From Acidilobus sp. 7A (GTDB taxonomy: Archaea; Thermoproteota; Thermoprotei_A; Sulfolobales; Acidilobaceae), in contig NZ_CP010515.1 in NCBI RefSeq assembly GCF_003431325.1, forward strand, positions 186,001 to 250,000: a stretch of 64,000 nt of DNA. Reading direction: 5' to 3'. Shown here in pieces: positions 39,461 through 60,074 of this stretch (the stretch's first letter is position 1; the number at the start of each line of letters is the position of its first letter). The notes under the pieces are model-generated. The model did not search any database and had not been told where the DNA came from. It worked only from the letters and a program-made list of their open reading frames with translations. Made by a program: the position numbers and the translations under genes.

Positions 39461-39761
39461 GTCTGTAACCTTTTTACGTAACTGCTCGTTATTTTAATCG
39501 CTTCTAATCTTTAACGCTATTAAGCAGGCTGAGGCTGTATGACTAATCAATTTTATGAGCTTTTATGCTAACATTAGATCGGAGGCGCCACCGTGAAGTC
39601 GATGAGCAGTCGCGAGGTGGAGGAGGCGCCCTGTGAAGCTCCCGCGTCGTGGCTGGGAGCTGTGCTCCCTAACCTAGGCGCGGGGAGGGGTGAGGAGTGA
39701 TGAGGCCGAGCGGCTAATAGTCGCGAGAGGCGACTATTAGTCACAATGAAGGCCGAACTCT
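39461..39761 (+). repeat. Dispersed structured repeat, long copy (possible ncRNA or non-autonomous element)
   Basis: About 300 bp, repeated as a ~230-bp form at 57392-57621. The left half is AT-rich with promoter-like boxes (CAATTTTATGAGC, TTTTATGCTAA). The right half is GC-rich and structured: GGGAGC-TGT-GCTCCC hairpin (39655-39669), CCTAGG, and an 11-bp perfect hairpin CTAATAGTCGC...GCGACTATTAG near 39714-39740. The long copy differs by a ~42-bp insert flanked by GAGGCGCC-N2/3-GTGAAG repeats and by the extra hairpin arm. A tail GGCGCGGGGAGGGGTGAGG faintly resembles the right end of IS200/605 elements. It fills most of the 560-bp gap before the next gene. Confidence 0.7.
39593..39700 (+). 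CDS. Small ORF in dispersed repeat (35 aa), possible microprotein
   Basis: GTG 39593 follows GGAGG (39581-39585) by 7 nt and a TATA-like box. The product is 35 residues ending SWLGAVLPNLGAGRGEE. The repeat copy at 57516-57581 encodes 21 residues ending SWPGAVLPNLGAGGEEE, with the same start, stop and frame despite a 42-nt length difference. Frame conservation supports translation, but at this length chance or shared RNA structure could explain it. It could also be the tail of a lost tnpB. Confidence 0.35.
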   Translation: MKSMSSREVEEAPCEAPASWLGAVLPNLGAGRGEE

Positions 39762-57391: not shown

Positions 57392-57621
57392 GTCTGTAAC
57401 CTTTTTAGTAACTCTGTTATTTTTAATCACTTCTAATCTTAAGCTTTAAGCAGGCTGAGGCTGTGCTAATCAATTTTATAGCTTTTATGCTAACATTAGA
57501 TCGGAGGGCGCCACAGTGAACTCCCCGTCGTGGCCGGGAGCTGTGCTCCCTAACCTAGGCGCGGGAGGGGAGGAGGAGTGATGAGGCCGAGCGACTATTA
57601 GTCACGATGAAGGCCGACTCT
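57392..57621 (+). repeat. Dispersed structured repeat, short copy
   Basis: Matches 39461-39761 from GTCTGTAACCTTTTT to GAAGGCCGA..CTCT. It lacks the 42-bp insert and one arm of the long hairpin. It keeps the GGGAGC-TGT-GCTCCC hairpin, CCTAGG, GACTATTAGTC and the GTGATGAGGCC / ATGAAGGCC boxes exactly or nearly so. It lies between truD and the surface-protein operon, filling the gap. Its left edge overlaps the TATA box of the gene at 56609-57355. Confidence 0.7.
57516..57581 (+). CDS. Small ORF in dispersed repeat (21 aa), possible microprotein
   Basis: GTG 57516 lies after TCGGAGGG and the product ends SWPGAVLPNLGAGGEEE before TGA 57579-57581. The sister ORF at 39593-39700 has the same frame and near-identical C terminus. 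Compensating base changes after GGCGCG keep the length unchanged. Translation is unproven. Confidence 0.3.
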   Translation: MNSPSWPGAVLPNLGAGGEEE

Positions 57622-57627
57622 ACTGCC

Positions 57628-58743
57628 TCAGCCTGCGAAGGTGAATGGGTCCTGCCTCAGCAGCTCCCTGAGCACCACGGTAGCGTACATGCCCCTTGGC
57701 AGCGAGAACTCAAGGCCCGCCTCGCCCAGCCTCAGCCCCCTGACCTCCATTAGAGACGGCCTTGTAAGGTCCCTGGCTGCGGCCCCCAGCTGCCCAGAGG
57801 CCAGCTCCTCGACCCCCTCATCCCTCATGACCTCCCTGCAGGCCCCCTCGGCGTCCGAGGCCCTCCTGGGCACCCTCAGGGCCCTCGGCAGCGCCCCGTT
57901 GGCCTCGATGAGCCTTGAGAGGCACAGGTTGAATATGTAGGACTGGTAGGCCTCTATGAAGAACCCTGGCCCCATGGGGTAGGCCTTTATGGCCCTCGCC
58001 GGGTCGCTGCTCCTAAGCAGCTCCCTGAGGACCCTGGCCTCGGGCCACAGGCTCCTCGGGGCCGCCCTGAGGGCCTCCTCGGGCCTGCCATCGTCGTAGA
58101 GCCTCCTGAACGTCCTCCAGGCCTCCGGCTCAGCCTCAAAGGGCCTGCCGAGCAGCAGGTCAAGGGCCTCCCTCAGGTCGCCCCTGACTATCGCTTTACC
58201 CACCAGGTGGCTGTTGGGCCTCACGAGGCCAAACCTCTGGTAGCCGAAGAAGGCCGGCAGGAGGGGGGCTGAGGCCAGCCTCTCGACCCTCCCCTTAAGC
58301 TCGGCCTGGTCGCCCTCAACCCTTATAATAAACCTGTTGCCCGTGTGCTCAAGCCTGCTGTCGTGGTCCCCCAGGTAGGTGAGCTCAACCCCGCTAAGCC
58401 TCGTCCTCCCAGGCCGAGGCCTGCCGCCCAGCGTGTAGACCAGCTGGTAGGTCACCGCGTTGGAGTCCTTCATGCCGAGGTGGTGGGGCCTTGAGCCCAG
58501 GGCCCTTGAGGCTAACCTCACGGCAGTGGCGTGGTCGACGCCCACCTTGGCGAGGAGGTAGACGCGCATGTTGCCCCTTCCGCTCGGCCTGAACTCTGTG
58601 CACGGGGCGCCTGAGACCTCCTCTATCACAGTGAAGCCCTCGGGCCTCCTTATGGTGGCCCCGAGGGGAGGCCACCCCTCGTCTAAGTAGTACACGAGCA
58701 TGCCAACGTGCCTGTCGAGCCAGTGGGGGCTCCTCAGGGGCAT
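57628..58743 (-). CDS. truD: tRNA pseudouridine synthase D
   Basis: About 371 residues. HHLGMKDSNAVTYQLVYTLG holds the TruD catalytic Asp (G-x-K-D), with PAFFGYQRFGLVRPNSHLVG and a NRFIIRVEG motif in order. The inserted TRUD domain is present. It converts U13 of tRNAs to pseudouridine. ATG 58743 (MPLRSPHW) is the simpler start; GTG/ATG options up to 58770 add nine residues. The stop is only a few bases from repeat copy 2. A tRNA gene lies upstream. Confidence 0.93.
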   Translation of the reverse strand: MPLRSPHWLDRHVGMLVYYLDEGWPPLGATIRRPEGFTVIEEVSGAPCTEFRPSGRGNMRVYLLAKVGVDHATAVRLASRALGSRPHHLGMKDSNAVTYQLVYTLGGRPRPGRTRLSGVELTYLGDHDSRLEHTGNRFIIRVEGDQAELKGRVERLASAPLLPAFFGYQRFGLVRPNSHLVGKAIVRGDLREALDLLLGRPFEAEPEAWRTFRRLYDDGRPEEALRAAPRSLWPEARVLRELLRSSDPARAIKAYPMGPGFFIEAYQSYIFNLCLSRLIEANGALPRALRVPRRASDAEGACREVMRDEGVEELASGQLGAAARDLTRPSLMEVRGLRLGEAGLEFSLPRGMYATVVLRELLRQDPFTFAG

Positions 58744-59161: not shown

Positions 59162-59443
<282 letters not shown>

Positions 59444-59447
59444 TAGT

Positions 59448-60074
59448 CTACCTTCCCTTAGACCTCTCCCTGACGCAGCGGCCGAGGCCCTTGGCGATCT
59501 GAATCAGTATCCAGAGCGAGGCGCCCACGTCGGGGTCCCTCAGCCTGTACCCCATCCCAAGGGCCCCGTAGCGCCTCTCCTCGGTGACGTCGACCCTGCC
59601 CAGGGCCGTTATGGAGCACCTGGCCAGGTCCTGAAGGGCGTTCTGGGCGTTAGCTATGTCGTCGGCCGAGACCTTTGAGACTCCGTAGCTTACGGACGCC
59701 AGCAGGGCCAGGAGCCTCATAAGCGCTGGATCCGTGGCCGCCGCGAGGAAGGACTCCTCTGCCTTGTCCGCGAGGTAGGACAGCATGCCGAGGATGCCGC
59801 TCCTCTTGAGTTTGACTACAGCCTCCACGAGCTCTACCAGGGCGAGTGTCCCCACGTCAACGTTTGGGGGAGGCGGGAGCTCAGGCAGCGCCGGCTTAGG
59901 GGGCTGCGCTGCCTGAGGCGCTGGGGGCTTCGCCGCGGGGGCCGCCTGGGGCTTAGCGGCCTGCTGGGCGGCTGGCTGCTGTTGCTGGGCCGCCTGGGGG
60001 CCCTGCTGCGCCTTCTGGCCCGCGCCCTGCGGCTGGGGCTTTGTGGGCTGCCCTGCGCTGGGCTGGCTTGACAA
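59448..60074 (-). CDS. DUF1641-like helical protein with Gln/Ala/Pro-rich N terminus
   Basis: 208 residues. The first ~70 are low-complexity (Q, A, P and K runs), probably disordered. The rest is helical: VELVEAVVKLKRSGILGMLSYL and DPALMRLLALLASVSYGVSK resemble DUF1641 proteins, which in archaea often go with formate dehydrogenase or other redox enzymes; none is next to it here. The stop lies directly after the TnpB right end, so the insertion may have set the present 3' border. Confidence 0.6.
   Translation of the reverse strand: MSSQPSAGQPTKPQPQGAGQKAQQGPQAAQQQQPAAQQAAKPQAAPAAKPPAPQAAQPPKPALPELPPPPNVDVGTLALVELVEAVVKLKRSGILGMLSYLADKAEESFLAAATDPALMRLLALLASVSYGVSKVSADDIANAQNALQDLARCSITALGRVDVTEERRYGALGMGYRLRDPDVGASLWILIQIAKGLGRCVRERSKGR

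Follow-up and report, generated by a model that had tools for sequence, protein, structure and literature searches.

In the known TnpB-omegaRNA (OMEGA) systems, the RNA lies at or overlaps the 3' end of the tnpB gene on the same strand, and a zinc ribbon is typical of TnpB. The transposases of IS200/IS605 elements recognise single-stranded hairpins at the ends of these elements. An IS607 TnpB of ~390 aa is paired with a conserved RNA derived from RAGATH-18, for which a possible kink-turn has been reported (PMC11061315). In the available parts of their descriptions, SMN1 (320 bp) and SMN2 are nonautonomous elements of Sulfolobus, of which SMN1 is said to depend on ISC1733 (PMC3718332, PMC3839810).

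The repeat considered here occurs twice in the window, i.e. the whole stretch of 64,000 nucleotides of Acidilobus sp. 7A that we analysed. We assign a probability of roughly 0.8 to the reading that both window repeats derive from an archaeal IS200/IS605-type element, as nonautonomous (MITE-like) forms that carry its RNA. A MITE-like derivative of an IS200/605 end had been among the options of a previous sequence-only reading, and with precise ends, dispersal, GTCT insertion and internal deletion this option turned out to be essentially right.

A dispersed family of small elements

Both copies described in the sequence-only reading exist, and the limits given for them are true boundaries that comprise a GTCT target and the element (39461-39761 and 57392-57621). 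The claim of a two-copy repeat is refuted: the whole-genome search with copy 1 that the reading had proposed returned 21 matches in the 1.539-Mb genome of the window, among them seven near-complete copies and about ten clear fragments. Further copies are present in two congener genomes; the remaining genomes of the family gave none at the sensitivity of this search, and phage and plasmid records gave no match by DNA or protein. When aligned with their flanks, the full copies share the ends GTCTGTAAC... and ...GGCCGAACTCT, and the sequence outside is unrelated. A second family of ~300-bp mini-elements (L014, L015 and L018, at C1:844388, 182684 and 1371315 of the genome) has only the 47-bp left end in common with the window repeat and possesses a different structured body ending near GGGTAAACAC.

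In copy 1, the target tetranucleotide GTCT (39461..39464, plus strand), which the empty sites of the homologues L100 and L096 keep, lies directly 5' of the element and outside it. The nonautonomous element itself is 297 bp long (39465..39761, plus strand), reads GTAACC...GAACTCT and is sharply bounded in its homology across the seven copies. Its left end (39465..39510, plus strand) with the palindrome TAAC-N5-GTTA is common to the repeat and to the parent elements described below, and the motif GTCTGTAAC..TTTTACGTAACT..TCGTTATTTTTAATCACTTCTAATCC also occurs in the parents L091, L095, L097, L100 and L101. The minus strand holds a relic of the C-terminus of a TnpB-like protein (39494..39541; HTASACLIALKIRSD and a stop, compare DRHTASAYLIALKGLEVIKNN) with a three-frame score of 44 against a shuffle maximum of 38; the corresponding relic of the congener copy L038 scores 75 against 33. 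A putative TATA-like promoter element (ATTTTATGAG, 39550..39559, plus strand), assigned from the parent elements, stands ~28 nt 5' of a structured RNA with three stem regions (39580..39761, plus strand). This RNA is delimited by a covariance model match and by covariation, and its 3' end is the right end of the element. A strict search identified a terminal kink-turn in it, composed of the 5' strand GGAGU-GAU-GA-GGCC (39694..39707, plus strand) and the 3' strand GGCC-GA-ACUCU (39751..39761, plus strand), the latter stopping at the element end. The AT-rich left half recognised earlier is the left end, the relic of the nuclease C-terminus and the putative promoter, and the GC-rich half is the RNA.

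Copy 2 is a shortened element of 226 bp (57396..57621, plus strand), as determined by repeat search and alignment of the full copies, and is preceded by a GTCT (57392..57395, plus strand) that we designate as target by analogy with the empty sites of the homologues. Its RNA of 120 nt (57502..57621, plus strand; covariance model E 9.5e-19) has lost the first stem block and one hairpin arm, in agreement with the earlier observation that the copies differ by blocks at short repeats; the missing blocks are one between direct repeats and one arm of the hairpin. The kink-turn, intact in copy 1, is one base short in copy 2 (GGCC-GA-CTCT), where the strict search found no intact one, and the RNA of copy 2 is probably a decayed one. 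The element ends 7 bp (57621-57628) from the end of a minus-strand TruD-like (pseudouridine synthase) ORF.

Copy 1 is absent from the syntenic intergenic region of the congener G001, a region too diverged for placing the junction. In G002 (C1:229900-230480, L138), the slot of copy 1 is occupied by a different TnpB-omegaRNA-like remnant, and this slot has thus been struck more than once.

The mode of insertion became apparent from empty sites, which we searched in one genus with the joined flanks of eight homologous Sulfolobaceae elements. Two insertions had empty counterparts: L100, a parent-type element with a broken nuclease gene (empty in three genomes), and L096, a mini-element (empty in one). 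The empty sites read flank-GTCT-flank (GCCT in one genome), and in both cases the element is located directly 3' of GTCT without target duplication; these exact empty sites are those of Sulfolobaceae copies, not of the window copies. Judged from these junctions, insertion 3' of GTCT without duplication is a signature like that of IS200/IS605. Alignments reveal subterminal hairpins rather than terminal inverted repeats, namely the left palindrome and a right hairpin, and no conserved left-flank motif was seen beyond GTCT. A Y1 transposase was found in seven of the ten genomes queried and not in the window's genome, G001, G002 or G148 (PF01797 for the last), and the element ends were not matched at the four Y1 loci examined. 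G148 carries the insertions L100 and L096 that its relatives lack, yet gave no Y1 match by PF01797; the mobilising enzyme may have been lost from this genome. At the level of sequence, the comparisons demonstrate dispersal, exact ends, insertion of the homologues at GTCT without duplication and descent from the parent element.

The RNA and the parent element

The covariance model was derived from the GC-rich half of 12 copies, which were aligned and folded and which all stem from the window's genus and lack the nuclease gene. The search with this model, likewise proposed in the sequence-only reading, detected the RNA in 33 out of 157 genomes from the order; a single genome frequently has many copies, and both window copies are among the matches. 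The earlier statement that the right half is structured was confirmed in two ways. The fold of the RNA half of the sister copy L003 is better than that of shuffled sequences (z -3.8). In an alignment of 62 matches (60 distinct sequences), 91% of the cells pair and 41 of 48 pairs show two-sided changes; 389 cells are changed on both sides compared to 134 in shuffles and 39-66 when slid, numbers to be read with the fit of the alignment to the model, which favours structure, and with the kinship of the sequences, which inflates the shuffle control. G-U pairs are common among the pair changes. These factors can hardly account for so large an excess and such varied pair types, and covariation strongly supports the RNA fold.

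The conserved structure extends ~185 nt inward from the right end, and homology between copies stops where the RNA and the element end together. At this 3' end, a helix, a 3-nt bulge, tandem G-A and a further helix that closes exactly at the element end make up the kink-turn, which the strict search recovered in 41 of 79 RNAs and in 0.7% of shuffles. Its stems are of different types (GAGU/ACUC, GGGG/CCCC, GGGU/ACCC and CCGU/ACGG). The motif suggests binding by L7Ae. RNAs co-precipitated with L7Ae were reportedly described by Zago in 2005, with Sso133 possibly among them. In most of the closest parent elements, a TTTATA box is found at -27 to -29 of the RNA.

A clear match to an Rfam family had been named as a refuting outcome; none is present in the repeat at gathering level. 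Sso133 (RF02814) scores 30.1 bits there (E 6e-4), under its gathering score of 44, and is above this score in the RNA of ten distinct loci, including Sulfolobaceae parents and the congener copy L041, with up to 93.6 bits. Its 73-nt model corresponds to the central hairpin region of the element RNA; it covers the middle only, without the terminal kink-turn, the transposon context and the nuclease. Since Sso133 is the central part of the RNA, the RNA would be expressed in Sulfolobus, provided that the Rfam annotation rests on detected transcripts.

We fetched the regions upstream of 40 RNA matches and inspected them for genes. Many contain a divergent pair of genes encoding a protein of ~54 aa and one of ~350-410 aa. 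In the Sulfolobaceae parent layout of ~1.48 kb, a RuvC protein of ~350 aa and the ~54-aa protein are encoded on the same strand, opposite to that of the divergent RNA. Copies of ~1.47 kb (L091, L095, L097, L098, L100 and L101) can be aligned from their left ends through to the 3' end of the RNA, and they share their left end with the window repeat. A homologue of the small protein is weakly MazE-like (E 0.0076). The nuclease family possesses the invariant residues D200, E264 and D331. It gave no significant Pfam match and only weak NCBIfam matches below the cut-off, to a transposase N-terminal domain, a TnpB-related protein and Cas12f2, and no Cys motif of a zinc ribbon (PF07282) was found in the nuclease protein A2. 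The predicted fold (pLDDT 87) matches Cas12f1 best among solved structures (E 2e-8), followed by Cas12k, RuvC and CasX, with IscB matching weakly. These likenesses are by fold only, as a search of solved structures by sequence gave nothing meaningful.

The nuclease is encoded in 50 of 397 sampled genomes of the phylum (E <= 1e-10), i.e. in about one eighth. The window's genome yielded no intact nuclease, so the RNAs there are orphan copies. Profile matches and three-frame scores identified only C-terminal relics of the nuclease in the window's genus, mostly inside small copies, which argues that the small copies arose through internal deletion.

A protein-only scan with seven query proteins yielded 32 archaeal loci. 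In 25 of them, the RNA model matches immediately upstream of the nuclease on the other strand (the four weakest at E 0.04-0.24), and these head-to-head loci range from Sulfolobaceae to Thermococci and Bathyarchaeota. Since the seven queries had been picked for an adjoining RNA, their nearest relatives are not independent evidence; the distant relatives (33-47% identity; Thermoprotei, Thermococci and Bathyarchaeota) are. Comparative analysis establishes the conserved RNA fold and its conserved head-to-head pairing with the nuclease. At one locus (L186:1246-1411), a weak same-strand match to the RNA model lies beyond the divergent one and is perhaps a neighbouring mini-element.

Function of the RNA and alternative readings

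By internal deletion, both genes of the parent were lost except for the last nuclease codons, and the left end, the promoter-like sequence and the RNA were kept. Such copies would move by single-strand 'peel and paste' transposition, catalysed by a Y1 transposase in trans. The RNA would read through the right end, by which the flanking DNA would become the guide; loaded into the TnpB-like protein, it could direct cleavage of the empty site at a motif of the GTCT type, which, following the OMEGA logic, would favour retention of the element. L7Ae may bind the kink-turn. By the same analogy GTCT is a candidate for the recognised motif; as the element itself ends in CTCT on the right, a site would be without GTCT once occupied. 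As the RNA lies at the right end beside a Cas12f-like protein, the analogy with TnpB-omegaRNA systems makes a guide scaffold the simplest reading, and we somewhat favour the view that it is an OMEGA-type guide RNA of unusual architecture. The nuclease without a typical zinc ribbon or a significant Pfam match, the RNA on the opposite strand, the four genomes (the window's included) in which no Y1 was found and the Y1 loci examined, which did not show these ends, count against the explanation as a whole.

The alternative that survives best holds that the RNA is part of the transposon without being a guide, i.e. that it regulates transposition or that its hairpins act chiefly at the DNA level, marking the right end for the transposase. 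The right-end hairpins are indeed placed where IS200/IS605 transposases recognise single-stranded hairpins. Many sRNAs of S. solfataricus are antisense to transposase genes and have been proposed as regulators (PMC3432209). We nevertheless consider this alternative unlikely, since conserved structure reaches ~185 nt inward and is accompanied by a promoter-like box, G-U is common among the pair changes as expected for RNA, and the predicted fold of the nuclease is that of RNA-guided enzymes. Moreover, the RNA and the nuclease gene share no overlap, which makes cis-antisense pairing between them impossible.

Much less credible is a host regulatory ncRNA or promoter module for surface-protein operons, which the sequence-only reading had considered. 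Both window copies are indeed located directly 5' of minus-strand genes for Thr-linker, TM-anchored proteins; these are, however, the only two of the seven full copies with such neighbours, and by our own assignment the other five stand beside transporter, ABC ATPase, aminoacyl-tRNA synthetase, endonuclease and chaperonin-type ORFs. In addition, the copies have decayed separately from each other, the RNA is directed away from the operons, and a congener has no counterpart of copy 1 at the syntenic site. The association with operons for secreted proteins is thus a coincidence, and the contexts of the other copies rule out regulation of the neighbouring surface-protein genes. What stands of the earlier options is that a conserved, structured RNA makes up the GC-rich half, albeit one that is transposon-borne and no regulator of its neighbours, and that the AT-rich half is a promoter module solely in the sense that it holds the promoter-like sequence of the RNA itself. 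Equally improbable is a cellular family of C/D-box-like sRNA genes spread by duplication: although the kink-turn, with its UGAUGA and GA, is reminiscent of C/D boxes and the Sulfolobus homologue carries an sRNA annotation, the copies have transposon ends, nuclease relics and GTCT insertion, the RNA is linked to the nuclease gene across archaeal phyla, and the terminal motif is a kink-turn with covarying stems, not C and D boxes around a guide.

Comparison with known systems

With the window repeats read as derivatives of the parent element, the orphan Sulfolobus sRNA Sso133 is given a concrete identity, and the same probably applies to SMN1-like mini-elements. By length and host range, SMN1 and SMN2 come closest among the mini-elements described so far. 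Compared by description only, they resemble the window family in length (322-328 bp from GTCT in the comparable Sulfolobaceae copies), in lineage, in having no terminal inverted repeats and in their proposed IS200-type mobilisation; they differ in that the available parts of their descriptions contain no RNA or kink-turn (PMC3718332, PMC3839810).

An origin of the RNA as a standard omegaRNA was rejected, as none of the 14 zinc-ribbon TnpB regions in the window's genome shares the repeat's RNA at the gene end; a zinc-ribbon TnpB was also absent at the position expected for a standard omegaRNA in the regions upstream of the 40 RNA matches. Elsewhere in the window (59165-59455), an Rfam match to HgcC (RF00062, 53.5 bits) covers part of a TnpB C-terminal fragment at its 3' end, and another TnpB gene of this genome likewise has an HgcC match at its end (L048:2631-2763). 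HgcC appears to be a family of TnpB omegaRNA.

We found no description of the nuclease-RNA layout in the open-access literature, to which our search extended, and an earlier one in the subscription literature is possible. The odds are about even, judging from sequence comparison, that it represents a separate archaeal branch of transposon nucleases guided by RNA. In this branch, a Cas12f-like protein without zinc ribbon would be transcribed head to head with its guide RNA, the scaffold would end in an L7Ae-type kink-turn at the transposon end, and RNA-only mini-elements would spread guides even in genomes without the nuclease. The findings tie a conserved kink-turn RNA to a family of compact proteins resembling Cas12f. 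Should the RNA act as a guide, the parent would represent an OMEGA layout in which guide and nuclease have separate transcripts, with L7Ae possibly as a third partner, and mobile elements that carry the RNA only would serve as portable guides.

With TnpB-omegaRNA systems, the parent element shares a TnpB/Cas12f-like RuvC protein with a D/E/D triad, a structured RNA that ends at the right end beside variable flank, and insertion 3' of a tetranucleotide. In contrast to them, its RNA is located on the opposite strand, 5' of the nuclease gene, has a promoter-like sequence of its own and carries a kink-turn at its 3' end, the nuclease is without zinc ribbon, and an extra protein of ~54 aa is present. 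The IS607 TnpB with its RAGATH-18-derived RNA likewise combines a compact TnpB with a conserved RNA and a possible kink-turn; there, however, the RNA follows the nuclease gene within an IS607 element, whereas here the two form a divergent pair and insertion is IS200/IS605-like (PMC11061315).
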